This document shows, piece after piece, positions 3,184 through 28,732 of a DNA stretch of 39,657 bases. The DNA comes from Burkholderiales bacterium (GTDB lineage: Bacteria > Pseudomonadota > Gammaproteobacteria > Burkholderiales > Burkholderiaceae_C): the NCBI GenBank assembly GCA_947508055.1, contig CANNRR010000016.1, forward strand, positions 1 to 39,657, in the 5' to 3' direction. The notes beneath the pieces are model-generated. The model was given only the letters and a program-made list of their open reading frames with translations, made no database searches and was not told where the DNA came from. The position numbers and the translations under genes are program-made. Positions within the stretch are counted from its first letter, which is position 1. Each line of letters begins with the position of its first letter.

Positions 3184-3429
3184 TTATTTCCACTTTAAAA
3201 ATACCCAAACAGTCAGCGCCGCTCCAATAGTCAAAAACATCCAAGTCTCTGACACGACGTAGGGATACAACATGAGCACTACGCCAGCAATGGTCATCTC
3301 AGTTCGGGACGATTTCCTGCCGTGCCTGTAGGTAACATAGCCGATGATGCCAAAGATGATGGAGCCGAATATGTTGAGCGGACTGGGTAAGGTCAACCCC
3401 ATGGACTCGAGTGCTTTGATTTCATTCAT
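3184..3429 (-). CDS. Small hydrophobic membrane protein, unknown function
   Basis: 81 aa with two hydrophobic segments (IFGSIIFGIIGYVTYR; ETWMFLTIGAALTVWVFL). Confidence 0.55.
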   Translation of the reverse strand: MNEIKALESMGLTLPSPLNIFGSIIFGIIGYVTYRHGRKSSRTEMTIAGVVLMLYPYVVSETWMFLTIGAALTVWVFLKWK

Positions 3430-3537: not shown

Positions 3538-6114
3538 TCACCCGTTTGACGTCGCAGGTTTTATTGGGGAGGCAGACGACTTCAATGAGGTGTTCTTGCG
3601 ACCCATGGTCTTGTCGCACAACCGGGCAAACGTTTTTGCTTTGGAGTCAAGCACCGATCTGGCCTGGTGCAGCGCACGGCATCTCCACCCCGCGCCAGCC
3701 GCGGCGCCTGCCAGTAAAACCAGTGAGTACGCCCCAGAAAGCAGAGACCAAAGCCCCAGCAGTAGTGTGCCTCCCACGGCCAACCTGCGCGGTGAACACC
3801 AGATTGCATTGACGCGGTCGATCGCATCCACCGCATCGACCTGCGCCTGCAAGGCCATGCTGGCGCTCATCAAACTGTCAAGCGAAGACCTGACTTTCGC
3901 GGCGTCCTCCTGGGCGGGGGCCAGGCGGATGACCCGGAACCCAGCGGTCTGCAAGTCCTCCAGCGCTTCGCGCAGCTGCAAACGTGCTCCCGGGGTGCGC
4001 AGTCCGGCACGCAACAGATCGACAACGCTCTGCATTTCCCGCAAGAGTGATCCAGAACCATCCTCGCCGGCTGCTACGCCCTGGTGCTGCGCGGAGGACA
4101 TTCTTTCCTTCTCACGTGCCATGTCTTCCAACGCCAGCGGCAGCAACAACTGCGCCACGATCACGCCGACGGCATCGAGTTCATGCAATGACCCCAGGGC
4201 GAAAAACCACGGGCAGACATCACCGCTGGCCGCTACTGACGCAACGAGATTCGATCGAACCATGGACACAAATGCCGGCAAACATACCGCCAGCAAGACA
4301 TGCCCATGCAAACGTTCCATGGGCGGATGGTTCATGCGCGCCGACTGCAGATACAAAGCGTAGTGCACGTCGACCACAACCTGACTGCTGCCGAACCAGG
4401 TCTTGGGTTCGCGGCGCCAGCGATCTTCAGCATCACGCCCCTTTTCCCACAAGCTGGCGAAACGCTCCAGACCCTGGAGCCACTGCTGGCGGAAAGTAGA
4501 GACTTCGTTGCGTCCCGCTAGCGCCAACGCCTCCAGCACGCCTTCGCCGTGCAAGGAGTGCAGCCAAGCCATTGAAGTACGGTCCCCGTTGGATGCCTTG
4601 CGCGCGGCAATCAGCAAAGACTCCCTACTCACAGGCAGTCCTTTCCATACCGCGGGGATATCGGGCACCGCCGCCAGCACAAACTTCAGCAGCCGCCAGT
4701 CATCGGAGACTCCCCGGACATCCGCAATGTCTTGCAACCTGCGCAACAGGTTGTGGTCGTGGAGTTGCTCTTCTAGCCAGTTCGAAACGGTACCGCGCGC
4801 CAGATCCTTGGCACCGATGTCCCAATGCTTGACGAGGGTCGCAGCCAGTTCCACTGCAGTGGTGCATTGAGAATCCGCGATACGGTAGGGACGCAGCGCC
4901 GCGTTAACCGCCCCTTCCTGCGGCTCGACCAGTGTCGGGTCTCCGGCGAGCCAGCGTTGCACTTCCGGCCAGCTCCAGCGCACGTGGGGGTCACGCATCA
5001 GCAGGCCACGGCACAGCTTGCGCAGCTCACCATGAAACACAGGTCTGACGTCCACGGGCTTGGTCGCAAGCTGGTGGTTGACGATCTGCTCGTTCAGGTC
5101 CTCAAAGGGATGGCGGCCCACCGCAGCCTCCAGAACGATCATACCAAGCGACCACCAGTCGGCACGCTCGTCGATGACTCCAGTCAATGCCTCCGGAGCG
5201 GCATAGCGGGTCGTACGCGCGCCGCCCGTGAAGTGTTGCGTGCCCATGCGTACCGAGGCAATGCCGAAGTCGGTGAGCACCAGCGACAAAGGTGTCATCG
5301 TTCTCACAAGCACGTTTTCCGGTTTGAGGTCCCGGTGAAGGATATTCATGGACTGCACCCGGGCCAGTGCCTGTCCGATTTCAGAGACGATCTCATAGAT
5401 GCGGTCCACCGAAACCAGCCCGGCCTCGAGCAACTGTCGCAGACTGCCCTGTGCCAGGTACTCCATTACCTCGAAGCGAATGCCGCCCACGACGCCGGCC
5501 TCTACGATACGAATCACATGCGGATCATTGGCTTGCTGAAGCTTGGCCAGCAGATTCTCATCGCCCTGCAAGCCTTGGCGGTAAAGCTTGACGATCCAAT
5601 CCACATTGTCGTTCTGTCCCCGTACGCGCAATAGGTCCGCCTCGGCTCCGGCGGTGGGCAAAAGTTCCAGAGCCAAATAGCGTTGGCGCAGCGCAGTAGG
5701 CAGACGCAGTTGCAGCTCCACCGCGCTGCTATGCCCGTCCGCGCCAGTCAGCTCGGTACTAAAGGGGCGATTGCAGTACAGACAACGCGCCGTGCCAGGC
5801 GGATTGGGTTGCGCACAGTCCGGGTGACCGCACACCTTCTGACCACCACCCTCAGTGACTTCAGCAGACAGAATCAGCGAGGAATCATCCTCCGCTGGTA
5901 ATGGCTGGGGTGCTGGCGCTGCTGTTGATGCGTGAGCAGAGGCAGAGGCTGAGGTAAAAGCCGGACCAGGAACCTGAACTGGTGCCGGCCGCTCGTGCGG
6001 AATCTTCATGCTGAAGTCCACCCCCATCAGGGAGGAGCCACACCCACATCGCGACGCAGTCGCCGCGTTCTCACTTTCGCACACCGGGCAGATGCGGATG
6101 TAGTTCTCGCTCAT
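3538..6114 (-). CDS. Serine/threonine protein kinase with N-terminal zinc ribbons and C-terminal hydrophobic hairpin
   Basis: CPVCESENAATASRCGCG and CARCLYC-type Zn ribbons; HRDLKPENVLV, DFGIA, APE motifs; C-terminal GGTLLLGLWSLLSGAYSLVLLAGAAAGAGW. Confidence 0.85.
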   Translation of the reverse strand: MSENYIRICPVCESENAATASRCGCGSSLMGVDFSMKIPHERPAPVQVPGPAFTSASASAHASTAAPAPQPLPAEDDSSLILSAEVTEGGGQKVCGHPDCAQPNPPGTARCLYCNRPFSTELTGADGHSSAVELQLRLPTALRQRYLALELLPTAGAEADLLRVRGQNDNVDWIVKLYRQGLQGDENLLAKLQQANDPHVIRIVEAGVVGGIRFEVMEYLAQGSLRQLLEAGLVSVDRIYEIVSEIGQALARVQSMNILHRDLKPENVLVRTMTPLSLVLTDFGIASVRMGTQHFTGGARTTRYAAPEALTGVIDERADWWSLGMIVLEAAVGRHPFEDLNEQIVNHQLATKPVDVRPVFHGELRKLCRGLLMRDPHVRWSWPEVQRWLAGDPTLVEPQEGAVNAALRPYRIADSQCTTAVELAATLVKHWDIGAKDLARGTVSNWLEEQLHDHNLLRRLQDIADVRGVSDDWRLLKFVLAAVPDIPAVWKGLPVSRESLLIAARKASNGDRTSMAWLHSLHGEGVLEALALAGRNEVSTFRQQWLQGLERFASLWEKGRDAEDRWRREPKTWFGSSQVVVDVHYALYLQSARMNHPPMERLHGHVLLAVCLPAFVSMVRSNLVASVAASGDVCPWFFALGSLHELDAVGVIVAQLLLPLALEDMAREKERMSSAQHQGVAAGEDGSGSLLREMQSVVDLLRAGLRTPGARLQLREALEDLQTAGFRVIRLAPAQEDAAKVRSSLDSLMSASMALQAQVDAVDAIDRVNAIWCSPRRLAVGGTLLLGLWSLLSGAYSLVLLAGAAAGAGWRCRALHQARSVLDSKAKTFARLCDKTMGRKNTSLKSSASPIKPATSNG

Positions 6115-6115
6115 G

Positions 6116-6787
6116 CTAACGCCGCCACGAAACGTCCTGCAGGCTCAATCCCCGGCTACTGCACAGGGCCTCAACCTTTTCCATATCCCCACGGGCAGGA
6201 ATGCCGATCATCCAGATCTTGCCGTGCTCAACTGCCACCTGCATCTTCTTGTCGGTGTCTGCCAGTGGTTTGCTGACGAATTCATCAAAACGCTGGTGAC
6301 CCAGATTGCTCAACGGTAACAGCAACTGGTTGGATGAGCCGCGCCAGACTGCGACCGGCTCCTGACTTTCAATAAAGGGCTCCGAAATCACAGCATCCAG
6401 CAAAGCAAGGATCGCAGCGTGCTTGTTGTGCAAAGTTTTCAGCGGATAGCCAGAATAGCAAAGGATGTCGAAATCGAGCTTATCTACACGTCGCCATTCA
6501 CGCAGGCCCCGTAATAGAACGGTCAGCGCCTGCGCCTGATCGAACGGCTCACCACCGCTGATCGTCACCCCGTCAAACCCGCTCGCCCCTACCTGCCTGC
6601 ACCACGACAGCAGATCGTCAATGTCAACCTTCTTACGCGGGTCCGCCCTCCAGGTGTCCATGGATATGCACCCCTTGCAGCCGATGCTGCAACCCTGTAC
6701 CCACAGGCCAATGCGACGCCCGGGCCCAAGCACGGTGACGGGAAAGTGGGCCTTGTTAACCTCCAGAAACGTGGGGCGAGATTTCAC
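6116..6787 (-). CDS. Radical SAM 4Fe-4S single-cluster protein (NrdG/activase-like minimal fold)
   Basis: GRRIGLWVQGCSIGCKGC (CxxxCxxC), GVTISGGEPFDQ; GTG start at 6787 overlaps the TGA of the upstream AAA+ gene. Confidence 0.8.
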   Translation of the reverse strand: MKSRPTFLEVNKAHFPVTVLGPGRRIGLWVQGCSIGCKGCISMDTWRADPRKKVDIDDLLSWCRQVGASGFDGVTISGGEPFDQAQALTVLLRGLREWRRVDKLDFDILCYSGYPLKTLHNKHAAILALLDAVISEPFIESQEPVAVWRGSSNQLLLPLSNLGHQRFDEFVSKPLADTDKKMQVAVEHGKIWMIGIPARGDMEKVEALCSSRGLSLQDVSWRR

Positions 6788-8637
6788 TGCAGACTTACTG
6801 ATACGATGCCGTCCGCATCCAGAACGATATCGGTCACCTCCAGTGTTTCCCGCCCGTTCAAGGGAAAGAGAAAAAGAGCACGGCTCAAAGGATTGATGAA
6901 CGCCGACTCCAGACAATTACCGATACCCCGCCCGCCATTGGACATATCCCGTGTGCACTCCAGCAGAAGCTTGCTGCGCATCGCATCCGGAATGACCATC
7001 TGCACCCGGTGCTCTTCGCTTACCCGGGCAACCACATTAGCCAACATGCCGTCCATGATCTGGGCTGCGATGGCTTCTGCTATGAATCCAAATACCACGA
7101 TGTTGTCGCCCAGACGATTAAGAATCTCCGGCCGGGAGATGCGAAACTTGAAGTAATCCTGGATGGCACCTTTAACCCGCGTCTCCACCACCTCCTGCGA
7201 ATCCGTGGGATGCACGTTCTGGACCCGGCGCCCGCTTTCGTCTTCCACATAGATGCCCAGGTTGGAGGTGAAGATGATGATGGATTCGGTGAAATACGTG
7301 GTGTCGCCTCTGCCATCTGTCAGCCGCCCGTCTTCAAGGATCTGCAGGAACTTATCAAGGATGCGCGGGTGCGCCTTCTCAATTTCATCAAACAGGATGA
7401 CGCTAAAGGGCTTGGCGCGCACGGCGTTAGTCAGCTCACCGCCCGCGTCGTAACCGACGTAGCCAGGTGGTGCACCCAGCAGCCGGGCGCCGGCATGCTC
7501 TTCAGCAAACTCGCTCATATCAAAGCGAATATAGGCGCGCTCGTCCCCGAACACCAGCTGAGTCAATGTCTTGGCCAGCTCGGTTTTACCAACACCGGTC
7601 GGGCCCGCAAAGAACAGCACCCCGCGCGGGCGGCTGCCGCGACCGCGTGCCTGCGCACCGGTCAAGCCCATCACTGAGCGCATCAGAATGTCTATGGTCT
7701 TAGAGATGGCACGGTGCTGCCCGCGAACGCGGCCTTCGATGAACTTCTGGGCAGTCGCAATCTTCTCGCGCAGGTAGTGCTGCTTCCAAGGGTTTTCTGT
7801 GACACCCACTTTGAAGCACTGAACCGCCTCGTCCACGTTGCGCAGGGCGATGGACTGGCGTTCTGCGATGCGGGCGATGTCGTTCATGGCGGACAGATTC
7901 AGCCCATCCGTCATGTCGGCAAATGAGGTCTTGAACCTCACCTGCGCATCCGGTGTGGACTGTGCAAATCCGTCAAAGAGATCGGCAAGCAAGCCGGCCG
8001 CCATCTGACGGGTCTGGTAGTCGGGCGGCCCGATGATCAGACTCGCCACCCGTGCACTGTCCAGCGTCAGCCATGACGGGAGGTCCTGTGCCCGGTTGAC
8101 CAGCCACACCACCGGATTGAAAAGCGGCTTGCCAACTACAGTATCCGGCACATCACTGCGAATCAAGGTCGGAGTCGCCAGCAGCGAGAGCCTTTGCGCA
8201 GCGAGGAAAAAGCGGTGTTCTGTCGCATCGAGATGGTCTGCCTGTCGCGCCAGTCGCGAGGCAAAGTCGATGACCAGCGCACACCGTGCTTCCCGCTGCG
8301 AGCCCACTGCCTTCATGATGTCAGTCAGTGTTTCCAGACTGGCAGCCATGGAGCCACCCTGCAGCTTCAAGTCAAAAAGCCGCGTAGCCAACTCCACAAC
8401 ACCCGGCTCGTTCGGATAGGGCCGGATACCGTCGATTGGGTCATACACCAACAGCAACTGGTATCCCTGAGCACTCAGAGATGTCCACAGACTGCGGATC
8501 AAGGGGGCCAGCGTGAGTGTTTGACCGTCTTTGAGCGGCGTGAGGAAACTGTCGCGGATGTTGCCGGACACCAAAAACTGAGAGCGAATCGGCAATTGGC
8601 GCTCCAGGTCCTGTATCCAGCGGGGTGTCCATTCCAT
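6784..8637 (-). CDS. AAA+ ATPase with ClpB/ClpA D2-like C-terminal module and divergent N-terminal domain
   Basis: GPTGVGKTELAKTL, GAPPGYVGYDAGGELT (pore-loop-like), VILFDEIEKAHPRILDKFLQILEDGRLTDGRG, FTSNLG; N-terminal about 300 aa lacks a Walker A. Confidence 0.85.
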   Translation of the reverse strand: MEWTPRWIQDLERQLPIRSQFLVSGNIRDSFLTPLKDGQTLTLAPLIRSLWTSLSAQGYQLLLVYDPIDGIRPYPNEPGVVELATRLFDLKLQGGSMAASLETLTDIMKAVGSQREARCALVIDFASRLARQADHLDATEHRFFLAAQRLSLLATPTLIRSDVPDTVVGKPLFNPVVWLVNRAQDLPSWLTLDSARVASLIIGPPDYQTRQMAAGLLADLFDGFAQSTPDAQVRFKTSFADMTDGLNLSAMNDIARIAERQSIALRNVDEAVQCFKVGVTENPWKQHYLREKIATAQKFIEGRVRGQHRAISKTIDILMRSVMGLTGAQARGRGSRPRGVLFFAGPTGVGKTELAKTLTQLVFGDERAYIRFDMSEFAEEHAGARLLGAPPGYVGYDAGGELTNAVRAKPFSVILFDEIEKAHPRILDKFLQILEDGRLTDGRGDTTYFTESIIIFTSNLGIYVEDESGRRVQNVHPTDSQEVVETRVKGAIQDYFKFRISRPEILNRLGDNIVVFGFIAEAIAAQIMDGMLANVVARVSEEHRVQMVIPDAMRSKLLLECTRDMSNGGRGIGNCLESAFINPLSRALFLFPLNGRETLEVTDIVLDADGIVSVSLQ

Positions 8638-8667
8638 GCAATTGCTCCCGAGTTTTTGGGGACGCTG

Positions 8668-9990
8668 TCAGCGCTTGATTTTCAGCAGTTTAGGGGCGAC
8701 TGAGCGTTGTTCTTGCAGTACCTCTGCCGGCAGCGTAGAAGCGTCCACCACTTGCACAGGCAATTCCCCTGCACCGAGCAGACGTTTCACATCCAGCGTA
8801 AGGCCCCGCGCTTTCAGCGTCTCCAGCATTTTGGGAAACTCGGAGCACCAGCGGTCTTCGGCAAAAGCGTCTACCCGCCTTCGCTCTGCGCTCTCAACTG
8901 CTCCGCGCGCACGGACCACATTGAAATTGAGTGTCTGGTCTTGCACACCCGCGCGCATGCGCACGAAGTACTCGCCCCAGCCGTGTCGCTGGAAGTGCGC
9001 GACTCCACCCTCAATGAAGAACGTACTCTCAACCCCGTCCACCTCGTAGCCCAGATCACGCAGCGATTGCTCCAGCACCTGCGCTGCCGCCTCTTCCTGC
9101 AGCTGCATTCTTCGTGCTTCGATTGTTGTCAGAGCGGTCCGTGCCAGCTCATGGGCAGGTGCATCCATCATGCGTTCACCGGCTATGACGTCCTCCAACA
9201 ACTGCGCTAGTTCCTTCGGTGCATCTTCGGCCATGGCGGCAAAAAGTCTGAGGGCCTCTTCCACATCGGCGCGCTCGTTTGCGCGCGCCTCGCACAGCCT
9301 TTGGACCTGGAGGCGCAACTCCATAGCGAGAACTTCCGCCCGCACCAGATCCGGCGCCAGAACAATGGATTTTGCCAGATGGTCCAGTTCCACAGGAACA
9401 GTTTCGTCCAGGCCCAACTCCAGTCGTGCCAGAATGCGTTTCACCACTTGTCTCGCGGCATCAGCCTGCTGATGATCTAGCTGTGCCTGCATCGCACGGT
9501 GCATCATGTAAACGTGCAAAGCTTCTTCTACCGGTACGACCTCATTGGAGTCCTGATCGACAGGCATCTCTTGCAAAGTAATGTTGTGTTGGCGAATAAA
9601 GTCCTGAATGCGGACTGCCTCCGCTTCAACTGCTTCGATATGCCGGCGCCACCCGTCCGTCAACCGGTCCACAGGAGTCGGCATCCCTGCTGGAAGCCCG
9701 CCAACAAAATGGACACCAGCCGCATCTTCCACGCCGCCCAGCAGTCCGCGAAGTCGCTCCAGCCGCGCTTCAGACCGCAGCGCCCGGTTTCGCAAGACCT
9801 TACGTTCGTCAATGCGTGCCTGTTGCGACGCATCTCTTGCCTGGGAGAGGGCATCGGCACGCCTTTTGATCTCGGCAAATACGTCCTGGTACTCGCGCCC
9901 CATCTGGTGGGCTTCGCGCAGGGCGAGCGCAGCCAACGCGATCGCACCCAACGGTGCAAAAGAAAATGCTGCTGTAGCCGGCCCGCTCAT
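8668..9990 (-). CDS. Coiled-coil protein with N-terminal hydrophobic segment, unknown function
   Basis: 440 aa; FAPLGAIALAALALREAHQMGREY then long charged heptad-rich region; co-oriented with the AAA+/rSAM/STK genes. Confidence 0.7.
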   Translation of the reverse strand: MSGPATAAFSFAPLGAIALAALALREAHQMGREYQDVFAEIKRRADALSQARDASQQARIDERKVLRNRALRSEARLERLRGLLGGVEDAAGVHFVGGLPAGMPTPVDRLTDGWRRHIEAVEAEAVRIQDFIRQHNITLQEMPVDQDSNEVVPVEEALHVYMMHRAMQAQLDHQQADAARQVVKRILARLELGLDETVPVELDHLAKSIVLAPDLVRAEVLAMELRLQVQRLCEARANERADVEEALRLFAAMAEDAPKELAQLLEDVIAGERMMDAPAHELARTALTTIEARRMQLQEEAAAQVLEQSLRDLGYEVDGVESTFFIEGGVAHFQRHGWGEYFVRMRAGVQDQTLNFNVVRARGAVESAERRRVDAFAEDRWCSEFPKMLETLKARGLTLDVKRLLGAGELPVQVVDASTLPAEVLQEQRSVAPKLLKIKR

Positions 9991-10016
9991 GCAAGCCTCT
10001 GCGAACTCGAAACCAT
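9987..10016 (-). promoter_or_regulatory. Putative 9-codon leader ORF (MVSSSQRLA) overlapping the start of the coiled-coil gene
   Basis: AAGGAG-like RBS before ATG at 10016; its TGA overlaps the next ATG as ATGA. Confidence 0.35.
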
Positions 10017-10071
10017 GTCATCTCCTTGAGGCGTTGAAGAAATCTGCTCACCAGCTTCCATGTTATCTGCT

Positions 10072-10085
10072 CTTTTCCGGAAAAG
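10072..10085. promoter_or_regulatory. 14-bp perfect palindrome CTTTTCCGGAAAAG upstream of the four-gene operon
   Basis: Perfect dyad about 80 bp upstream of the first gene's start. Confidence 0.4.
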
Positions 10086-10256
10086 CAGAGCCACGCTGCT
10101 TCTTGGTACGCACTACCTGACGTTGTGCGGCAAAAGAGAGCCTAGCAACTTCGACAATGGGTGCATGATGATCCTTTTGATTTACCAATTGCTCAAATCG
10201 GCCCCTCTCTGATCCGCGGCGATCGGACGCCTTTACCAACACCGGTCCAAAACTCT

Positions 10257-10793
10257 ATGCCGTTCACCCCGCTCCATATGGGCGCAGCCCTCATCGTCAA
10301 ACCGGCTGCAAAACGCCACCTGAGTCTGTTGACGTTCGCAGTCGCCCAAATCGCCATGGACATTGAACCGGGCATCGGCATGCTTGTGGGCGCTCAAGTG
10401 CTTCATGGCCCCAGTCACACTGTTTGGGGCGCTCTTCTCATAGCCTGTCTGGTAGTTTGGATAGCACCGTGGATATGTGATCCCATACTGAGACGCTACA
10501 ACCGCGAGGTCCGGCATTACAGACAAGATTGGCTTGTGGAGCCTGAGCCTATCAAAAAGGCTGCAGTGTTGGCAGGCTCGTTTTTCGGAACGCTCAGTCA
10601 CATCGGGCTGGACAGCTTGATGCATCACGACATACATCCCCTGGCACCGTTTTCTAGCGCGAATCCACTTCTGGACCTCGTCTCACATGATGGCGTTTAT
10701 CAATTGTGCGCGTTGTTTTCTGCTGTAGGCTCAGTTTTGTGGCTTGTGACAAAGTGGACTACAAAGCAAAAGCGTGATGTAGGTAGCGTTTGA
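10257..10793 (+). CDS. Membrane protein resembling DUF4184/metal-dependent hydrolase-like family
   Basis: MPFTPLHMGAALIVKPAAKRHLSLLTFAVAQIAMDIEPG..HGPSHTVWGALL..SHIGLDSLMHHDIHPLAPF; conserved His/Asp in membrane segments. Confidence 0.6.
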   Translation: MPFTPLHMGAALIVKPAAKRHLSLLTFAVAQIAMDIEPGIGMLVGAQVLHGPSHTVWGALLIACLVVWIAPWICDPILRRYNREVRHYRQDWLVEPEPIKKAAVLAGSFFGTLSHIGLDSLMHHDIHPLAPFSSANPLLDLVSHDGVYQLCALFSAVGSVLWLVTKWTTKQKRDVGSV

Positions 10794-11198
10794 TTTGCAG
10801 GAGAGAAGTTTGAACGTTCCATCACTAAAGTGGAGCGCCAACGGCAGGCCGCTTAGCTCGTTCGCTGAACGTCCTCCGTCGGGAAACTTGACAGTCTGGA
10901 ATGTGCCTAGTAGGTCCAACGATTTTCTGCAAAACAGACCGTCAAAATTGAAGGTTGGGTATTGGTGGAGCGCGTGAACCGGCATTGAAGCGGGTACTGT
11001 CGGGCGGCAGTTCTAAGGCGGTCCAACTTACTGGCAAGCCGAGTCCATTTGTGAACTTGGCTTCGCACCCCAAGGCGGACGGGCGAGACTCCGTCAAGCG
11101 GCTATTCAAAGACCGACTAAACCGATCATGAAACTAGAGCGATTGCACGGTCGGCAGCCGTTCCCATCAAACAGACGAACAGACGAACAGAGGAATTC

Positions 11199-11415
11199 AT
11201 GACACCGCAAATCCGATATGCAAGAAACGGTGACATCAATATCGCCTACCAGGTAGTGGGCAGTGGTCTGGGCGGCTTGGTATTGGTTGCGGGCTGGGTA
11301 ACGAACATTGAGGTGTTCTGGGAGGAGCAGACCGTGGTGCGGTTCCTAGAGCGCCTCGCGGCGTTCTCACGATTGACTATTTTCGACAAACGTGGCACGG
11401 GGTTATCCGCGAGAA
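11199..11415 (+). pseudogene. Truncated alpha/beta hydrolase N-terminus of the type fused to adenylate cyclases
   Basis: IRYARNGDINIAYQVVGSG..LVLVAGWVTNIEVFWEEQTVVRFLERLAAFSRLTIFDKRGTGLSAR then similarity ends. Confidence 0.65.
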
Positions 11416-11662
11416 CCAATGCGTCTTTCTGTGTGATGCTTAGCCGGAGATCTTCGTCCGTACTGGTGAAAACAAGTCCAACCAAGTGCCCAAACTCTTT
11501 GTCGTTGACATCAAAAACTTCGATGTTGGAGACGACTCCCATCGATGTGACGTCGTCCGCGTAAAACATGTTCTTATGAAATGTCTTACTACCACGATAC
11601 ATGGGGCCCAACATGATGAGCACGGCAAATGCGAAAAGCAGGAGTGTGAAGTGCCAGTCCAT
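11412..11662 (-). pseudogene. N-terminal fragment of a small membrane-anchored protein, cut at the same junction
   Basis: MDWHFTLLLFAFAVLIMLGPMYRGSKTFHKNMFYADDVTSMGVVSNIEVFDVNDKEFGHLVGLVFTSTDEDLRLSITQKDALVLADN; downstream of this the frame is antisense to the hydrolase fragment. Confidence 0.45.
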
Positions 11663-11964
11663 TTTCCGACAGCCTTATCAGTTCACAGGCGCCTGATCAG
11701 CCTTGGCCATACCAACTTGACTTTGTCCAGCAGATCTTCGCAAGATTGAAGCTATGCGCAACGACTCAGTCGGATTCAATCGAATTGACAGATAACTACA
11801 TTGCTGCTTGCTGGCGATGTTTGTTCTTCCACTTTGCCGACACTGGCAGGTAAAGTAAACGTCATGGCGCCAAAGCACTTAGCCCCGTCCATCTCGAACA
11901 ACCCTATCGTCTGACGAACCATGGACACTCCGTCTTGGTCTCAGCAGACGATCAGCCGCGGCAT

Positions 11965-17431: not shown

Positions 17432-19798
17432 TCAAATCAGCATTTCGCTTGTCCTGTAGCCCATCGCCCGGTACCCCACCTGTCGCTTCGCCCACATGCG
17501 TAGCAGTGCCGGATGACCGGAGTCCACGAAGTCGATGATCTTTACAGTGGTCTTTTCAGCATGGTCGCGGTGAAGGCGACCCGCATATTGCTGGAGGGTG
17601 CCCTTCCACGATACGGGCATCGCCAAGACCAGAGTATCCAGAGCTGGGTGATCAAAGCCCTCCCCCACCAGTTTTCCGGTCGACAGCAAAACTCGTGGCG
17701 CATTACCGGGCAAGGCGTTGAGTGACTCCACCAACGTGCTGCGCTGTTTCTTTGACATCCGACCGTGCAAAACGAAGGGCTCAACATCCTTGTCTGCCAG
17801 TGCTTTTTGGATTGCAGTCAGATGCTCCGTCCGTTCAGTCAGCACCAGAACTTTCCTTCCCGCCCGATACGCCGCTTCGATTTCTGCCGCAATGGCATCC
17901 GTGCGGGCGTCATCATTTGCCAGTAACTTGAAAATATCCTGGATTCCAGCATCCTGAACGGTTTCAATCCGGCGGTCTCGGTACCGAGGAACCACCTCCA
18001 GATCCTGCGGTGCGCTCAGCGGTCTGGCAGCCGAGTGTCGAATCGGGCCACATTGCATGAATATGATGGGTTGCTGTCCATCGCGGCGAATCGGTGTTGC
18101 AGTTAGCCCCAATACGTACTTGGCTTTGACCCGCTTCAGGATGGCGTCAAATGAGACGGCACCAACGTGATGGCATTCGTCAATGATCACCTGCCCGTAG
18201 GATTCCACTATCGGGTTGACCTCCCCTTGGCGGGAAAGTGACTGCATCACGGCGATGTCAATTTTTCCGGTGGGCTTGGACTTGCCGCCGCCGATGACTC
18301 CGACATAGCCCTTATCCAGAGTCAGGAAGGCTTGTAGTCGCTCCTGCCACTGCTTAAGGAGCTCGGTGCGATGAACCAATATGAGCGTATTGACGCCACG
18401 CTTGGCAATCAGCGCAGCAGCAGTCACCGTCTTGCCAAACGCAGTTGGGGCGCAAAGCACGCCGGCATCGTGTTTGGCCACCTCCTGCACCGCGACCTCC
18501 TGATCAGCTCGGAGTTTGCCCGTAAACGTCAGTTCCAATGGGCTGCCATTGGAGCGCTCATCGACCAATTCGCATTGAATTCCATTGTCCCGAAGCAATT
18601 CTTTTGCTGCATCAAGGCAGCCACGCGGCAACCCGATGTGATTGGGAAAGTTTACTGCACAGCCAATGACTCTGGGAACATTCCAAACTGAAAATCGCAT
18701 CGCCTGTGCTTTGAAAAATTCCGGGTTTTGGAAGGCCGCCAGCCGAATCAGGCGGTTGGCAAGAGACTGCGGCAATGCCTTCTTTTCAAAATAGATCAGA
18801 TTCGACAGGGTTGCTGTCAACACAGACGGCAGCGGCACGGTCAATTTCCTGGACGCTGTGGCCACTTTCTTCCAAGGCTCGTTGAGGTCCTCTTCGTCGA
18901 TGAACGTCACATCCAGCGGGTGGACCCCACCGGTTGCCCGCAGGATAGTTGGTTCGATATCCTGAACGGCCATCTGAACAACTCCCGCCAAATATGCCCA
19001 CTGGTCCGGAAATGGCCTGAAGTCAGCATCGACAAATACGCTGCATCCCGACTCACGAGGTGCCTTTTGCAGCGGCAAGGCAATCAGATTACCGAATCCT
19101 CCCTTAGGCATGACATCCTGATTGGGAAACAATCGGTCATACGATTCCAACTTGAGTTGCCGGGTTCTTGAACAAGCATGGCTGATGATGGCGGTCCCCA
19201 GACGACGGGCATCGCGGGCCAATGGCCGTCCGTCAAAGAAAATCCAGGCGTGTGCACCTGAGCCGGAGCGAGAAATTTCGATGGCAACCGGTACCCCAAG
19301 GTCATCACAGGACTTTTTGAAGGCACTGACATCCTGCCGCCATTCCGCATCATCGAAATCTGCCGCCAGGAAATGGCAGGTTTCATCGGCCAGCAACGGA
19401 TAGACGCCTATGGTTTGCTCGCCCGCAAGATGGTCATAAAACACATCGTCAGAAAGCTGAACGAACTGCCGATTGCTGCAATCTGCACATTTGATGCGCG
19501 GCTTCTCACAAACACCCGCAAGCCATTCATTCGCGCAGGCTGGGGAATAGCCAGCCTTACCACTTGCCCTGCTCTGCCAGCGCACAGGGAATAAATCCTG
19601 GCGACCTCGAAAAAGGCGCTTGAACAACCCAATTTTTTGTTCAATGCTCAGCCGATTCTGGCTTCGCACGCCCTCCAACTTTTCCTCAGATCGGACGGAC
19701 TTTCGCCATTCGATCCCGTTGGCCTCAAGCAACGCTGTAAGTCGAGCATTTTCCTCTTCTAAATCTTCAACGGTGACTTGGATTGGTTGGTGAGTCAT
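17432..19798 (-). CDS. TOTE-type archaeo-eukaryotic primase domain fused to DEAD/DEAH helicase
   Basis: LFKRLFRGRQDLFPVRWQSRASGKAGYSPACANEWL..CADCSNRQF; FLAADFDDAEW; SRSGSGAHAWIFF; FPNQDVMPKGGFGNLIALPLQ; helicase APTAFGKT, DECHHVGA, GLTATPIRRDG. Confidence 0.85.
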   Translation of the reverse strand: MTHQPIQVTVEDLEEENARLTALLEANGIEWRKSVRSEEKLEGVRSQNRLSIEQKIGLFKRLFRGRQDLFPVRWQSRASGKAGYSPACANEWLAGVCEKPRIKCADCSNRQFVQLSDDVFYDHLAGEQTIGVYPLLADETCHFLAADFDDAEWRQDVSAFKKSCDDLGVPVAIEISRSGSGAHAWIFFDGRPLARDARRLGTAIISHACSRTRQLKLESYDRLFPNQDVMPKGGFGNLIALPLQKAPRESGCSVFVDADFRPFPDQWAYLAGVVQMAVQDIEPTILRATGGVHPLDVTFIDEEDLNEPWKKVATASRKLTVPLPSVLTATLSNLIYFEKKALPQSLANRLIRLAAFQNPEFFKAQAMRFSVWNVPRVIGCAVNFPNHIGLPRGCLDAAKELLRDNGIQCELVDERSNGSPLELTFTGKLRADQEVAVQEVAKHDAGVLCAPTAFGKTVTAAALIAKRGVNTLILVHRTELLKQWQERLQAFLTLDKGYVGVIGGGKSKPTGKIDIAVMQSLSRQGEVNPIVESYGQVIIDECHHVGAVSFDAILKRVKAKYVLGLTATPIRRDGQQPIIFMQCGPIRHSAARPLSAPQDLEVVPRYRDRRIETVQDAGIQDIFKLLANDDARTDAIAAEIEAAYRAGRKVLVLTERTEHLTAIQKALADKDVEPFVLHGRMSKKQRSTLVESLNALPGNAPRVLLSTGKLVGEGFDHPALDTLVLAMPVSWKGTLQQYAGRLHRDHAEKTTVKIIDFVDSGHPALLRMWAKRQVGYRAMGYRTSEMLI

Positions 19799-20288
19799 GG
19801 CATGACACTAAGAGCTATCCACAGAATACAGGAGCCTACAGATATGCACGTTGGGCCGTCCTCGGGGTAATCGAAGTCGCGGCAAAGTTTTGCCCATGCC
19901 ACTTAAGCAATCCCTGAAGTCGTTTGGCTCAACTACTCGTATTGGGCCATGGCGGAACTTAAATTTTCCGTAGAAAGCTTTCAACAGCTGCCGAGGCAAT
20001 ACTGATGAGGGCTAAAGGCACGCTTATAAACTCAAAAAGTGCAAGAACAAGCCCCTGCATTAATGCGTGCAGTTTCAATTCATGCTCCGGCTCTTCAAGA
20101 AGGTTGTATGTGGTCTTCACATTGGGGAGCTTACAAGCCAACTGGTCTCATTGCAAACAACTCCTGAAGCTCACTAATCAACTGCTTCATGCCAGCCTCT
20201 TAAAAATCTGCCTTTCATGACGATTCATAGAGCCTTCGGCGCCCTCATTGTCGGGAACTGTGCAACCGTTTCCGATAGACTTCCCCGC

Positions 20289-20678
20289 ATGCCAGCGGAC
20301 AAACCCTGCCCCTTCTGCACCCTGCCTCCCGAACGCGTCGTGCTGCGAAACGCGTCGGGCGTGCTGGTGCGTGACGGGTATCCGGTATCTCCGGGGCACA
20401 GCCTGGTGATTCCGCACCGGCACACCGGCTCCTACTTTGACCTGACAGAGGCCGAACGTATCGACCTGCTGGCCCTTCTGGACCAGGCCAAGCAGCAACT
20501 TGATGCGCTGCACGCGCCGCAGGGCTACAACATCGGCATAAACGACGGGGCAGCTGCCGGGCAGACCGTGCCGCACCTGCACATTCACCTGATTCCCCGC
20601 TACACCGACGACCTGCCCGACCCGCGAGGCGGGGTGCGGTGGGTGATTCCGGACAAAGCGGTTTACTGGCAACCGTGA
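20289..20678 (+). CDS. HIT family (histidine triad) hydrolase
   Basis: CPFCTLPPERVVLRN..PVSPGHSLVIPHRHTGSYFDLT; VPHLHIHLIPRYTDD. Longer ORF from 20217 possible. Confidence 0.85.
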   Translation: MPADKPCPFCTLPPERVVLRNASGVLVRDGYPVSPGHSLVIPHRHTGSYFDLTEAERIDLLALLDQAKQQLDALHAPQGYNIGINDGAAAGQTVPHLHIHLIPRYTDDLPDPRGGVRWVIPDKAVYWQP

Positions 20679-21607
20679 TGCCAGCTATCCATACCGCCGC
20701 AGATATTCTGCAAACCTTTGCCACTATCCGCATGGCACCGGTCGGGGGTGGTCGGGCGGTGCACAAACCCTTGCTCATCCTCTTCTGGCTGGGGCGGCTG
20801 CAGCGCAACGAGCCGCGCACCGCAGCGTTTGCAGATGTGGAGGCTGCTTTCAAGCAATTGCTGACCGAATTCGGCACCGCCAGCGCGCCTGCTACCCGCC
20901 AGCTGCCGTTCTGGCATTTGTGCAACGATGCCGGCGGCAACATTTGGCAACTGGAATCCGCCGGTGGTATTGCCATTGCGACACAGGGCCCTGCGCCTGG
21001 CGTTACCTGGTTCAGGGCTGAATGCGTGCGGGCTGGCTTTGCACCGGCGGTGGATGCGCTTTTGCGCTCCGACCAAGCGCTGTGCGCCGGCCTGGCGCGG
21101 CAACTGTTGCAACATCACTTTCCGGAAACGCTGCACCTGGACATTGCGACGCAGACCGGGCTGGACCTGAACGAACCCGCCATTGTTGCCAGCGCCACAC
21201 TGCCAGGCCGCAGGCGCGACCCCGCTTTCCGCGAGCGGGTGCTGCGTGCATACGAGTACCGCTGCTGTGTGTGCGGGTTCGACCTGCGTATCGGCAACAT
21301 CAGCGCCGGGCTGGAGGCTGCGCATATCCAGTGGTTTACCGCCGATGGGCCGGACGTGGAGAGCAACGGTATGGCCATGTGCTCCCTGCACCACAAGATA
21401 TTTGACCTGGGTGCATTCACCGTTCAACCCGCCAACCTGTCGATCGTCTTCAGCCAGAACCTGCAACTGGGCGACGCCACCCGCTCAAACCTGCTGTCGT
21501 ACCACGGGGCCGGCATCATCCGGCCGCAGAGCGCGGCCTATGCACCGCAGAAGGCGTACCTGGATTGGCATGCGAAGGAAGTGTTTAAGGCGCCAGGGCG
21601 GGATTGA
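20678..21607 (+). CDS. HNH endonuclease with N-terminal sulfur-binding-domain-like region (candidate phosphorothioate-dependent restriction enzyme)
   Basis: ATG overlaps HIT stop (TGATG); N-terminal HKPLLILFWLGRLQRNEPRTAAFADVE..QLPFWHLCNDAGGNIWQLE; C-terminal CCVCGFDL..LEAAHIQWFTADGPDVESNGMAMCSLHHKIFD. Confidence 0.75.
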   Translation: MPAIHTAADILQTFATIRMAPVGGGRAVHKPLLILFWLGRLQRNEPRTAAFADVEAAFKQLLTEFGTASAPATRQLPFWHLCNDAGGNIWQLESAGGIAIATQGPAPGVTWFRAECVRAGFAPAVDALLRSDQALCAGLARQLLQHHFPETLHLDIATQTGLDLNEPAIVASATLPGRRRDPAFRERVLRAYEYRCCVCGFDLRIGNISAGLEAAHIQWFTADGPDVESNGMAMCSLHHKIFDLGAFTVQPANLSIVFSQNLQLGDATRSNLLSYHGAGIIRPQSAAYAPQKAYLDWHAKEVFKAPGRD

Positions 21608-21612
21608 AATGT

Positions 21613-21676
21613 ATTCGCTACGCTTTTTATAGCTGCTTGCGCACATCCCAAAAGGGCTAACGCTCAATTTGGCCCA
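21613..21676 (+). repeat. Interspersed intergenic repeat, copy 1
   Basis: ttcGCTAcgctttttATAGCTGcttgCGCAcatcccAAAAGGGCTaacgctcAATTTggccc; diverged match to revcomp of 30159-30216. Confidence 0.5.
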
Positions 21677-21696
21677 TAAACTCACTCCCACCCCTT

Positions 21697-24600
21697 TCAG
21701 CCACGCAACACGCTGAACTTTCGAAACAGTTCAGCCGTCAGAGGCTTATCAAGCCGCCAGGCAATAGAAATCGGCCGGTCGCTCTCATGGGAAACAAGTC
21801 GAACGGGGCCCACCGCCACATAGGCCGCATCACGGTCTTCGCGAACGAACAGTTGAAACTTCCAGCCATTTGCCGGGCTATCGGTGTAGCGTCGCCCAGA
21901 ATTGTTGTTAGGCCCAGCGCGGTTTTGCGTTTGCCAGTGGAACAGTTCCGGGCTGATAGCGTAGTCCTTGTACTGAACGCGCTCGTCAAACCCTTCGCTT
22001 TTGTCCAGAGTCACGAATAGAACTTCAGTCATGGCCTCCGTTAACGGCAAGCAACCACTGTCGGAAAGTGGGCGTGCAGTGGGCGTCAGGTAACCAACAG
22101 CCGACAAAATCTCAGCCCGCGTATACCGTCCGTGCAGCGCCAGCGTCCAACCGGCCGGCGCACCGGGCAAAGGCACCGGCTCCAACGCACTACGCTCTTG
22201 GAGAATGCCAACGATTTCTTGCAACTCAGCACGCGCCACGGGGTTGGCAAAGACGAGCGATAGAAATTGATCAGGGGCGATGACTTCCGTTCGCGTGGGC
22301 AGCAATTGGTAAGCCAGCATTTGGACTCGGCGTGCGTCGATGGCCCCGCCCGACAGTGCGACCTTCCAGGCAGCCAGCAGCGTAGGATCATTGGCATGCA
22401 GCACACTGAAAATCCGCCGCACCAAGTCGGCTTCGCGCGGACCCAATGGCACGGGCTCCAGATTCACTCTGCGCTTCAGGCTAGTCCAAGAGCGGGCATT
22501 GGTGCCACCGGTGTAAATGTCACTCAATTCCAATTGGCTATCGAGCAAAAAGTTGCGTAGCAACAAGGACGCTCCGCTTTGCAGTGCAGCCCATGCTGCC
22601 AACTCAGCGCACAAGCGAACCACATTCAAATTCAGCGCCTGTTGTAAGTTGCTTAGAACCCGTTCGCGCGCTACCCTGTCGAACTGAATATGGACACCCG
22701 CCGGGAGCGTGCTGAACCCATTGGCCACCGCGTCGGCAATCTGACGGCGGCTACTTCCCGTAATTGACCGAAGCAGCACATCAAAGCGAAATTCGTTGTT
22801 GTACAGGCCGACAAAGTCCAGCACCAAGCACGCCTCTTTACCCTTTGCGAGCCGCAGGCCCCGGCCGATCTGCTGCTGAAAAACAACGGGGCTTTGGGTG
22901 GGGCGTAGCAGGAGAATGGCATTTGCATCTGGGATGTCAATGCCTTCATTGAACACGTCACAGCTGCAAATCATCTTCAGCGCACCGTGGCTGAGTTGTT
23001 GCACGGCGGCCGTTCGCGCATCCTGCGAGTCAGCACCAGTCAGCGCCACAGCAGGCAAGCCTGAACGGTTGAAAAAGTCGGCCATGAAATGCGCATGGGC
23101 CACACTCACGCAAAAGGCCAAGCCCTTGAGGGCGTTCAGGTCAGCCACATAGGCATTCAGCGCATTGACCACCGTTCTGGCGCGCACTGCGTTGCCCGAA
23201 ACGATATTGGAAAGCTGAGCCACCTCCGATCCACGTCCCCACTCCACGGTGGTCATGTCGGTCTCGTCTGCGGTTGCGTAGTATTCAAACGGGGTAAGCA
23301 ACTGCTGGTCCAGTGCATCCCAAAGCCGCAGCGACACTGCGGGCGAACCGTCTGGGCGGCTGTCAAAGTAGTGCATTAGGCTTTGGCCGTCCGAGCGGTC
23401 GGGGGTGGCAGTCAGCCCGAGCAGATAGTGCGGCTGCACCGCTCCAATAAACTGATCAAAGGTTGTGGCTGGCAAGTGGTGCACCTCGTCCACGATGACG
23501 ATTCGCCAAAAATGGCCGCCCAGTTGCGCCACCAAGCGTCGACCATGCACCGTGTTGATCGTGGCAAAGATGTGCTCGTATTGCGAAGGCGTGTTGTCGC
23601 CGTCCAGCAGTTCACCAAACGCTGGGTCTCGCAATACTTGGCGAAAGGTCGATAGCGCCTGCGTCAGAATTTGGGCTCGGTGCGCGATAAACAATAGCTT
23701 CGGTGCGGCACCCTCTTCCTCACGCAGCCGCAAGTAGTCAAACGCCGCCACCACAGTCTTGCCAGTACCTGTGGCCGCCACCACCAAATTGCGGCGACGT
23801 CCCAGCCGCCGCTCGGCAGCCAACTGGTCAAGCATTTCTTGCTGGTAGGACTTGGGTCGTAAATCAAACCAAGTTTGTAGTGCCACCACGTTACTGGCCG
23901 CGATGGAAGCGTTTCCACCACGGCCACGTTCGTTGGCCAGCGCACGCACTAAAGCTTCACGGTGCTGGTCGTTACTGGGGTCGTAGGGCTGGAATTCCTT
24001 GTCATTCCAAAGCGTCTCGAAATTGGCAACCGCAGCGGCGAACAAGGGCGAACCACTGGCTTGGGCAAACTTCACCGTCCATTCGATGCCGCCAATCAAT
24101 GCGGATTCGGACAGGTTGGCGCTTCCAACGAAGGCAGTGCCAAATTGGGTGACGCGATGAAAAATCCATGCCTTGGCGTGGAGGCGTGTACGGCGTCCAT
24201 CAAGCGAGATCCGCAACTCAACGCCAGGCAACTTGGCAAACGCATCCACCGCACGCACCTCGGTCGCACCAATGTAAGTGGTCGTCAGTATTCGGAACTC
24301 TGTCTTCGGATTGCCATGCGCATCGAGCGCAGTGACTTGTTCCAAGACATCGAGCAATTTGCGTACGCCGCTCCAGGTAATGAAACTGACCAGAATGTCC
24401 ACCCGATCGACCTCGCGCAACTCGGCGCGCAATTCATTCAGCAGTGACGGGTCGGCTCTGGCAGACGTAAACAGCCAGGGGTGGCGCAACCCCGTGGCGG
24501 GCATCAACACTTCGGTATTGGGTGCATGAATCGACTTGAGTAACTGCGCTGGCATGGCCGGCAGACGCTCACCCTGGCCACTTGGGCGCAGTTGCATCAG

Positions 24601-24849
24601 GAGCTGGCGGATCAGTTCAATTTCGGCTTTGGCCTTTTCGCTTGCATCAGGCTGCCCGGCCGCCGCCGCGTCCAACAGTTCTGGCAAGCGGTGCACCAAC
24701 TCCGCAACGAATTGTTCGCGCCGCTGGTGCACCGTGGGCGCAGCGACCAGTGCTCGGTGTTGACTAGTCAGGCTGGTGACCTCATCAACTTCGTCCTCGT
24801 AAATCAGACGGTCGTACAAGCCTTTGGGAAGCTTCATTGGGGAGTCCAT
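21697..24849 (-). CDS. PLD-nuclease-like domain + SF2 helicase + DUF3427-type C-terminal domain
   Basis: RTRLHAKAWIFHRV..FVGSANLSESAL (HKD); VVAATGTGKTVVAAFDYLRL; VDEVHHLPA; GLTATPDRSDGQ; IGRGLRLAKGKEACLVLDFVGLYNNEFRFD; long C-terminal domain. Confidence 0.85.
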   Translation of the reverse strand: MDSPMKLPKGLYDRLIYEDEVDEVTSLTSQHRALVAAPTVHQRREQFVAELVHRLPELLDAAAAGQPDASEKAKAEIELIRQLLMQLRPSGQGERLPAMPAQLLKSIHAPNTEVLMPATGLRHPWLFTSARADPSLLNELRAELREVDRVDILVSFITWSGVRKLLDVLEQVTALDAHGNPKTEFRILTTTYIGATEVRAVDAFAKLPGVELRISLDGRRTRLHAKAWIFHRVTQFGTAFVGSANLSESALIGGIEWTVKFAQASGSPLFAAAVANFETLWNDKEFQPYDPSNDQHREALVRALANERGRGGNASIAASNVVALQTWFDLRPKSYQQEMLDQLAAERRLGRRRNLVVAATGTGKTVVAAFDYLRLREEEGAAPKLLFIAHRAQILTQALSTFRQVLRDPAFGELLDGDNTPSQYEHIFATINTVHGRRLVAQLGGHFWRIVIVDEVHHLPATTFDQFIGAVQPHYLLGLTATPDRSDGQSLMHYFDSRPDGSPAVSLRLWDALDQQLLTPFEYYATADETDMTTVEWGRGSEVAQLSNIVSGNAVRARTVVNALNAYVADLNALKGLAFCVSVAHAHFMADFFNRSGLPAVALTGADSQDARTAAVQQLSHGALKMICSCDVFNEGIDIPDANAILLLRPTQSPVVFQQQIGRGLRLAKGKEACLVLDFVGLYNNEFRFDVLLRSITGSSRRQIADAVANGFSTLPAGVHIQFDRVARERVLSNLQQALNLNVVRLCAELAAWAALQSGASLLLRNFLLDSQLELSDIYTGGTNARSWTSLKRRVNLEPVPLGPREADLVRRIFSVLHANDPTLLAAWKVALSGGAIDARRVQMLAYQLLPTRTEVIAPDQFLSLVFANPVARAELQEIVGILQERSALEPVPLPGAPAGWTLALHGRYTRAEILSAVGYLTPTARPLSDSGCLPLTEAMTEVLFVTLDKSEGFDERVQYKDYAISPELFHWQTQNRAGPNNNSGRRYTDSPANGWKFQLFVREDRDAAYVAVGPVRLVSHESDRPISIAWRLDKPLTAELFRKFSVLRG

Positions 24850-24993
24850 GGATTTTGATTGGCTATTCTGACCCAAGCGACGGCACATCCATCCTCGATT
24901 TACAAATAGATGGGGATCTTGGGCAAAGCATTTGCTCTTATTTAGATAGCGGCTCATGCAGATTTCACGGGCGCTACAGCCTCTAGTCCACCT

Positions 24994-25102
24994 TCAGGTT
25001 GCGAGCGATATCGCCCACTCCCTCCAAGCCTCATAAATCATATCCTTGGCCAAAGTGTCCAGCTCGCAATACCGCAGCATTGCAGCACATGCACTTCTGA
25101 GA
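24994..25102 (-). pseudogene. C-terminal remnant of a DUF2779-like protein
   Basis: Reverse-strand frame ..AAMLRYCELDTLAKDMIYEAWREWAISLAT* resembles the LLRYCELDTLAMVMIYEAWREW ending recalled for DUF2779 proteins; not in the ORF track. Confidence 0.5.
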
Positions 25103-25172
25103 ATGGGTTGGTAACCGACACTTTAAATGGCCTTGTGATCAGGTTCAGAGCGTTACATCACCCTGTCACAGA

Positions 25173-25240
25173 CCGCACGGTGCGACGCTTTGCAAAAAGA
25201 AAGGGCTCCTTGTTAGGGGAGCCCAGACTTAATGGCGGAG
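25173..25240. repeat. Diverged duplicate of the tRNA-Ser 3'-end plus terminator flank (possible att remnant)
   Basis: ccgcacggtgcg..aaaaagaaaGGGCTCCttgttaggGGAGCCCagacttaatggcggag parallels 28585-28652; final 22 bp match at 15/22 ungapped. Confidence 0.4.
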
Positions 25241-25341
25241 CCGAACGAATCACACAAACAAACAGCTACATACCCCTGAAAGTTGAATTCTGATCCCAAA
25301 CAAGGATTCGAATCCAACACCCCGTTCCCTTGCGTGCGGTA

Positions 25342-26187
25342 TCAAATGACCCCGACAGCTTGAAACCTACCGCGCAATTTGCTCACTACATCGGCCAGCG
25401 CGATAGGATCAAGCTGATTCTTTTTCATAAATGCCTTCCACTGAGTTTGCTTCGTTGCATCTCCGGCGAAGGAGTCTGTAAATCCGATGGGCACTGTGGT
25501 CGGCATGGGCATTTTGCGGCGCTCAAACGTTGCTTCAATGGCGCGGCGCACTTCGGACCGATCAAGCGTGGAGTCGTCCAGTAGCACCCACAAATCGAAG
25601 TAATCCTTCATTCGTGTGTTGGCCAGCCCCAGCAAACACACTGCATGGAATTTTTCGGCAACGACCGTGTATTTTGGATAGGCCCGTAGCTGCGGTGCCG
25701 GAAAATCTTCCAGCAGTACCGGGTAGCTGATCGCCTGTGGTCCCGGAGTCACCGCGTCACCGAAACCGATGTCAACTTGCAGTGCGATGCACGCACCATC
25801 CAGCTTTGCCTGCATGTCGATCCGCACACCTCCATAGCCTGCCTCTTTGCGGATGATCGATCCCTTGACTGAATCCGGATCAAACACCACCCCGTCTTCG
25901 CCAGGGGTCAGGCAAATTTGGCGGAAAGTCTTGACCGCAGTATCGACATCATCCGGGCCAAAGCCCAAAAGATCAGCATCACGGGTGGGCCGGTGCGCAA
26001 CGTCATACCAAAGCGTGAACAGCAACGCCCCTTTGAGCAGGAAGTTCGAGGCGTGCTCGGAAACGGACAGTCGGTACAACAAACGCTCCAGACCGTAATG
26101 CGTGAGCGTCAAATTGAAGTCTTGCTTGTTGGCGTCAGCGTGTTGCTTCAGACGTGCGCGGACTGATGCCGCCAGATTTCGACTCAT
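25342..26187 (-). CDS. AbiEii/AbiGii-family nucleotidyltransferase toxin
   Basis: HYGLERLLYRLSVSEHASNFLLKGALLFTLWYDVAHRPTRDADLLGFGPDD; KFHAVCLLGLANTRMKDYFDLWVLL. Confidence 0.9.
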   Translation of the reverse strand: MSRNLAASVRARLKQHADANKQDFNLTLTHYGLERLLYRLSVSEHASNFLLKGALLFTLWYDVAHRPTRDADLLGFGPDDVDTAVKTFRQICLTPGEDGVVFDPDSVKGSIIRKEAGYGGVRIDMQAKLDGACIALQVDIGFGDAVTPGPQAISYPVLLEDFPAPQLRAYPKYTVVAEKFHAVCLLGLANTRMKDYFDLWVLLDDSTLDRSEVRRAIEATFERRKMPMPTTVPIGFTDSFAGDATKQTQWKAFMKKNQLDPIALADVVSKLRGRFQAVGVI

Positions 26188-26801: not shown

Positions 26802-26807
26802 AGTGCG

Positions 26808-26837
26808 AGTATGTTGCATTTTATATGTACTTGTCAA
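26808..26837 (-). promoter_or_regulatory. Candidate promoter of abiEi-abiEii (TTGACA-18-CATACT)
   Basis: Reverse strand TTGACA at 26837-26832 and CATACT at 26813-26808; expected start point about 26801, the A of the ATG. Confidence 0.5.
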
Positions 26838-26879
26838 TAATATACATTCAATAGCAACAAACAAGCTCGACCGGCCATC

Positions 26880-28644: not shown

Positions 28645-28732
28645 TGGAGGAAGCGGTGGGATTCGAACCCACGGTACCTTTCGGTACGCCTGATTTCGAA
28701 TCAGGTACATTCGGCCACTCTGCCACGCTTCC
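28645..28732 (-). tRNA. tRNA-Ser (anticodon CGA), CCA encoded
   Basis: GGAAGCGTGGCAGAGTGGCCGAATGTACCTGATTCGAAATCAGGCGTACCGAAAGGTACCGTGGGTTCGAATCCCACCGCTTCCTCCA; anticodon loop TTCGAAA; long variable arm. Confidence 0.95.

Follow-up and report, generated by a model that had tools for sequence, protein, structure and literature searches.

The locus considered here raises the question of why genes for a coiled-coil protein, a protein-unfolding motor, a radical enzyme and a protein kinase should lie together in one operon, and what they might do as a set. It is found in a Burkholderiales bacterium (assembly GCA_947508055.1) on contig CANNRR010000016.1, whose whole 39,657-nt stretch was analyzed and is called here the window. 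The open reading frame (ORF) listing of the window gives an operon of four intact genes, all on the minus strand, running from 9990 to 3538:

8668–9990, minus strand: gene 1, MSGP coiled-coil (CC) protein of 440 amino acids (aa); ORF, 45-row alignment, AlphaFold model.
6784–8637, minus strand: gene 2, Hsp100-like AAA+ ATPase (here AAA), 617 aa; ORF, domain scans, alignment, fold comparison.
6116–6787, minus strand: gene 3, minimal radical S-adenosylmethionine (radical-SAM, rSAM) enzyme, Fer4_12 and NrdG-like, 223 aa; ORF, domain scans.
3538–6114, minus strand: gene 4, zinc-ribbon Ser/Thr protein kinase, 858 aa; ORF, Pfam, alignment.

With about even confidence, we regard this operon as one subtype of a modular system, in which a core made of the CC protein, an Hsp100-like unfoldase and the rSAM enzyme is joined to an exchangeable output or regulator, and which most likely acts as a phosphorylation-controlled conflict (anti-invader) machine. 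The composition of the system, its conserved catalytic residues, its co-inheritance and the exchange of its output are established at the level of sequence; an anti-invader function is plausible. An earlier interpretation made from the letters alone (the sequence-only reading) had described four co-oriented, nearly gapless genes, and the ORFs confirmed this layout: 30 nt separate the CC and AAA genes, the AAA and rSAM genes overlap in GTGA, and a single nucleotide lies between the rSAM and kinase genes. That reading had carried the feature to 10016, slightly too far, since the family opens with MSGP in the 45-row alignment and the start of the CC gene is best set at 9990. Pfam matched AAA_2 in the AAA protein (E 2e-47), Fer4_12 in the rSAM enzyme (3e-26) and Pkinase in the kinase (2e-31), and gave no significant match for the CC protein. 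The G+C content is ~57–61% over 4–10 kb (window positions 4001–10000) versus 52–56% immediately on either side, a weak hint of a separate origin.

The first line of evidence is the conservation of the arrangement. When genome contigs were scanned with the N-domain of AAA, 245 relatives came up; the best 80 of these were retrieved, and 81 loci, including one viral contig, were examined. The complete four-gene set was present in 58 of these 81 loci and was co-stranded in every one of the 58; the order CC–AAA–rSAM–kinase was kept in 53 of them, the summed intergenic DNA was below 300 nt in 45, and many of the loci without the full set stop at a contig edge. Orthologues 57–71% identical, in the same four-gene order, are found in other families. 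The arrangement thus far exceeds chance, and the co-location elsewhere that the sequence-only reading had asked to be checked was borne out. Within the same order, full-length relatives of AAA, besides the ubiquitous ClpB, occur in about 10 of 300 genomes, most of the loci having all four genes, and a separate search with an rSAM profile picked out the identical 10 genomes (hypergeometric probability of co-occurrence 7e-19, and 7e-12 at genus level, relatedness being ignored). Even where the rSAM gene is missing beside the AAA gene or lies far from it, 7 of 8 genomes represented by genome contigs still encode an orthologous rSAM enzyme (E<1e-93). At greater distance, genome G130 encodes AAA, gives a weaker rSAM match and lacks the kinase, and the divergent AAA loci L149 and L154 have a CC-like gene, no adjoining rSAM or kinase gene, and a weaker rSAM match elsewhere in the genome. 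The four genes are, in sum, a real functional unit that is inherited together.

Unrelated genes interrupt the cassette in L066, L103, L118, L092 and L093 (type III-like restriction, nuclease-like and antitoxin-like genes), the core genes being kept. The extra genes that lie between cassette members (in L066, L081, L092, L093, L103, L118 and others), among them DNA-processing and toxin-like genes, are diverse and not conserved; they look like insertions and were rejected as parts of the system.

The second line of evidence is the exchange of the output. The CC, AAA and rSAM core is constant, and the part attached to it is exchanged among lineages in four forms: the membrane-hairpin kinase of the window; a kinase–helicase–restriction endonuclease (REase) fusion; a Mokosh-like helicase with a PIN protein, on plasmids; and a kinase accompanied by FHA and PP2C proteins. 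The product of the kinase gene reaches ~2100 aa in Hyphomicrobium, Methylobacterium, Rhizobium and some others, and in those scanned the kinase is followed by DUF4011, a superfamily 1 (SF1) helicase (AAA_11/12) and an MTES_1575 REase. The helicase order (SF1 helicase–PIN protein–CC–AAA–4Fe-4S protein) was found on plasmids of Photobacterium, Acinetobacter, Moellerella, Polaromonas and Leisingera, and also in G130; where scanned, these helicases match MkoA at E 1e-92 to 1e-102, and some of the loci lie near integrase, ArdA, HsdS or DarT genes. Five such five-gene plasmid operons (L168, L209, L210, L211 and L212) may be read as partial Mokosh. As for the fourth form, PP2C, with or without FHA, occurs in L131, L133, L153 and L169: in L131 and L133 the phosphatase lies between rSAM and kinase, L133 having FHA too, and L153 carries a zinc-ribbon FHA, PP2C, the kinase and an FGE-sulfatase protein. 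One plasmid from Clostridia (Aristaeella) brings together a helicase, kinase, MSGP protein, FHA, rSAM, AAA and PP2C. The AAA tree groups the proteins largely by output type, with clades of six helicase/PIN rows, of six kinase-helicase(-REase) rows, of the PP2C rows L131 and L133, and of membrane kinases. On a Geminocystis plasmid (L208, 1–15998), a protein with a single 4Fe-4S cluster is encoded 9 kb upstream of a related AAA, with genes annotated as anti-phage dCTP deaminase and dGTPase in the vicinity.

The distribution is patchy (4 of 229 class-level and 6 of 299 phylum-level genomes), and no additional member turned up in a sample of 249 genomes from the phylum to which L133 belongs. In the AAA tree, the Burkholderiales member L040 nests inside an alphaproteobacterial clade, and this placement suggests horizontal transfer.

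The third line of evidence concerns the proteins themselves. All three enzymes look catalytically intact as judged from their conserved residues. For AAA, the relevant features are the following:

7783–8637, minus strand: N-terminal degenerate D1-like AAA domain, aa 1–285, without Walker A; alignment, fold comparison.
7582–7605, minus strand: Walker A GPTGVGKT, aa 345–352; Lys in 77/77 homologues.
7375–7395, minus strand: Walker B LFDEIEK, aa 415–421; Asp-Glu in 77/77 homologues.

The sequence-only reading had recognized a ClpB-D2-like module with Walker motifs and pore loop, preceded by a domain lacking Walker A. Both points held: the pore-loop Tyr is kept in 76 of 77 homologues, and the N-terminal domain, which conserves SGNIRD, DFASR and WLVNR..DLPSW, occupies the fold position of an Hsp100 D1. 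The second domain is a ClpB-type D2 with Walker A and B, sensors, Arg fingers and pore loop, which places the protein in the Hsp100/Clp superfamily. The AlphaFold model (predicted local distance difference test, pLDDT, 85.6) aligns over both rings with ClpC/ClpB (E 1e-29, template modeling score ~0.5). On alignment and predicted structure, AAA is thus a two-domain Hsp100 with a degenerate D1-like first ring and a presumably active ClpB-type D2. The ClpP-docking tripeptide IG[LFM] was found in the expected D2 loop in none of the 77 homologues, and a ClpP-linked protease was dropped on this ground. Identity with the ClpB disaggregase was also dropped: AAA scores 246.7 bits against a ClpB cut-off of 1232, and its D1 is devoid of Walker A.

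The rSAM gene starts at the GTG at 6787, overlapping the AAA stop, and the resulting 223 aa agree with the ~218 aa of its homologues. Its cluster motif is as follows:

6668–6691, minus strand: CxxxCxxC cluster motif CSIGCKGC; three Cys in 63/63 homologues.

The GGEP motif is likewise kept in 63 of 63 homologues, so that both hallmarks of the radical SAM superfamily named by the sequence-only reading proved general, and the family has conserved motifs of its own (SxDTW, GGEPFDQ and WRGSxNQ).

The CC protein is modeled (pLDDT 87.5) as long helices followed by a C-terminal alpha/beta domain, which is conserved and contains invariant W381 C382, G396 and G408 in the 45-row alignment; a fold search against the PDB gave no match at E<0.001. 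It is a putative adaptor or scaffold, and its invariant Trp–Cys and glycines are, by conservation only, candidate targets of the rSAM enzyme.

The kinase shows the following features:

6040–6090, minus strand: zinc ribbon 1 (CPVC...CGC); alignment.
5773–5832, minus strand: zinc ribbon 2; alignment.
4960–5667, minus strand: protein kinase domain (HRDLKPEN, DFG, APE); Pfam, alignment.
3682–3783, minus strand: C-terminal hydrophobic hairpin, a probable membrane anchor; hydrophobic segment in 49/56 homologues.

In the alignment of homologues the beta3 Lys is present in 54 of 56, the HRD Asp in 56 of 56 and the DFG Asp in 54 of 56, as expected for an active Ser/Thr kinase; the zinc-ribbon Cys are mostly kept (51–54 of 56), and a long C-terminal region ends in the hairpin. 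The motifs, ribbons and terminal hairpin reported earlier were all recovered.

Does such a set correspond to a system already known? No model or description matching the four-gene system was found in PADLOC 2.0 (2023 release), NCBIfam, Pfam or the open-access papers searched, in keeping with the earlier suggestion of a candidate undescribed system. Among the closest known systems is Mokosh: the MkoA model matches residues 162–452 of the window kinase (E 2e-20), and MkoA models match the SF1 helicases of relatives at E down to 1e-102. However, the four proteins of the window include no SF1 (COG1112-type) helicase, present in relatives L040, L041, L135, L168, L209 and L211, and Mokosh models gave no match to the CC, AAA or rSAM proteins. 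Mokosh also features a PLD-like nuclease (MkoB/MkoC) (PMC10952713), whereas none was found in the window by Pfam or PADLOC and the plasmid relatives have a PIN protein instead. The vWA-MoxR and FtsH ternary systems share an AAA+ ATPase center and variable effectors, and one FtsH subset includes a stand-alone radical SAM (Kaur et al. 2020, PMC7159879), which makes the latter the nearest conceptual precedent; in contrast, the window AAA belongs to the Hsp100 D2 family rather than to MoxR or FtsH (bpMoxR scores 12.6 bits, where its cut-off is 27, and AAA_2 161.6), and Pfam found no vWA in the four proteins. Compared with the TerY-P triad (TerY vWA, PP2C and zinc-ribbon kinase), the operon has the zinc-ribbon kinase but no vWA or PP2C match, PP2C being found in its relatives. 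MADS6, PD-T4-6, TerY-P and PglW resemble it in having a bacterial Ser/Thr kinase, but their matches to the window kinase cover the kinase domain region, no vWA was found in the operon, and the MADS6 score of 86 bits is far below its cut-off of 460. From ClpB/ClpC, with which it shares a conserved D2 and an alignment over both rings, AAA differs in its D1 without Walker A and the lack of the ClpP loop. The operon is placed among AAA+-centered, regulated multi-gene systems and is not set up as a separate category.

How might the parts work together? In the proposed mechanism, the CC protein would recruit a protein target or present it to the AAA ring, which would thread it by ATP hydrolysis in D2, and the rSAM enzyme would modify either the threaded target or one of the subunits of the machine itself. 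The zinc-ribbon kinase, probably anchored in the membrane, may sense a cue and gate the activity; PP2C and FHA accompany the kinase in other lineages, and the theme of phosphorylation gating, already put forward by the sequence-only reading, is strengthened by these genes of distant relatives. In relatives, the output would consist of a helicase together with an REase or PIN nuclease domain. The helicase and nuclease outputs, the plasmid carriage and the patchy distribution fit a conflict system.

Several observations, however, weigh against an anti-invader role. PADLOC matches at E<1e-15 were compared between 142 proteins flanking the cassette, mainly of the beta subtype (that of the window), and 142 random control proteins of the order, and no clear excess was seen near the cassette, the sample being small and the models broad: 23 families, with one protein each, were matched near it versus 14 member matches in the control, and several of the 23 are models of one kind that probably match the same protein. 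The enrichment in defense islands that the sequence-only reading had proposed to test for was thus not found, a result that weakens the defense reading and leaves it standing. Phage records gave no match to the cassette. The rSAM profile brought only distant relatives from viral contigs (28–38% identity), and the N-domain of AAA was therefore used as query instead; viral scans with the plasmid-type AAA gave no matches. The one viral (IMG/VR) contig, L058, has an alphaproteobacterial-type AAA (9974–11857) at its extreme end, next to a gene resembling those for single-subunit phage RNA polymerases; this AAA may be cargo of a prophage or belong to flanking host DNA. In addition, the core genes are retained even when split across the genome, a pattern also compatible with a stable role in the cell, and the nearest defense-like cluster in the window is 7 kb off, beyond metabolic genes. 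That cluster (17432–26921), which adjoins a tRNA-Ser gene (28645–28732), contains a TOTE-type primase/helicase, an HNH_2 protein, a ResIII/DUF3427 helicase and an AbiEii/AbiEi pair. Of the stress or anti-phage role proposed from the sequence, the conflict component gains from the plasmid helicase and nuclease outputs; the role was not established, given flanks without enrichment and phage records without a match.

These observations give weight to a different explanation, namely a cellular stress or quality-control module, in which the membrane kinase would control the Hsp100-type ring and the rSAM enzyme would repair or modify damaged proteins, with no anti-invader role. It would account for the ordinary flanks of the beta subtype, for the retention of unlinked parts, and for the same chromosomal place of the cassette in closely related species (10 of 12 pairs whose AAA proteins are at least 90% identical), more distant relatives differing in this. 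Against it stand the occurrence in only 10 of 300 genomes, the replacement of the output by a helicase with REase or PIN and the plasmid carriage in other lineages, and the apparent horizontal transfer; we consider it possible, though on the doubtful side.

A peptide-modification cluster of the ribosomally synthesized and post-translationally modified peptide (RiPP) type, in which a small effector peptide would be matured by the rSAM enzyme and regulated or exported by the products of the other genes, appears improbable. It draws on the stand-alone rSAM of the FtsH ternary systems, beside AAA-vWA, for which modification of a peptide effector has been proposed (PMC7159879), but there is no conserved small ORF, the window junctions (30 nt, overlap, 1 nt) being tight, nothing in the related loci matches the neighboring 81-aa gene (3184–3429), and SPASM-type maturase models match the rSAM enzyme weakly. 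Much less probable still is an ordinary glycyl-radical-enzyme activase (NrdG/PflA) sitting in the operon by chance. The enzyme shares Fer4_12, CxxxCxxC and GGEP with such activases, NrdG is its best NCBIfam model and pyruvate formate-lyase activase its nearest solved structure by sequence; yet its 82 bits are below the NrdG cut-off of 126, it has its own motifs, it is inherited with the AAA gene, and neither Gly_radical (PF01228) nor NRDD (PF13597) was found in 10 of 15 cassette genomes, that of the source (G000) included. A dedicated activase was rejected on the score and the missing partner, and with it the implication of glycyl-radical activation in the earlier "NrdG-like" label. Finally, a regulatory set like that of the type VI secretion system (PpkA/PppA/Fha and ClpV) without the secretion apparatus, suggested by the kinase, PP2C, in part FHA, and ClpV-like AAA together in L131, L133, L153 and L169, is hardly credible, considering the 211 bits of AAA against a ClpV cut-off of 885, its D1 without Walker A, the rSAM enzyme in the core, and the lack of any type VI secretion gene noticed among the neighbors inspected.

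Returning to the modular conflict machine, a bolder version of it can be offered tentatively, as a possibility short of even chances: a new class of conflict machine, present in several phyla, in which an Hsp100 unfoldase with a dead first ring and a dedicated rSAM enzyme, which would modify the threaded protein by radical chemistry under kinase control, form a core that can be fitted with either helicase/nuclease or membrane-kinase outputs. No description was found of an unfolding motor inherited with its own rSAM enzyme, and the operon would join protein remodeling, radical chemistry and phospho-signaling in one machine. Some plasmid loci with Mokosh-like helicases prove to belong to a larger gene set, and the swapped outputs provide a ready comparative set for probing the role of the core.

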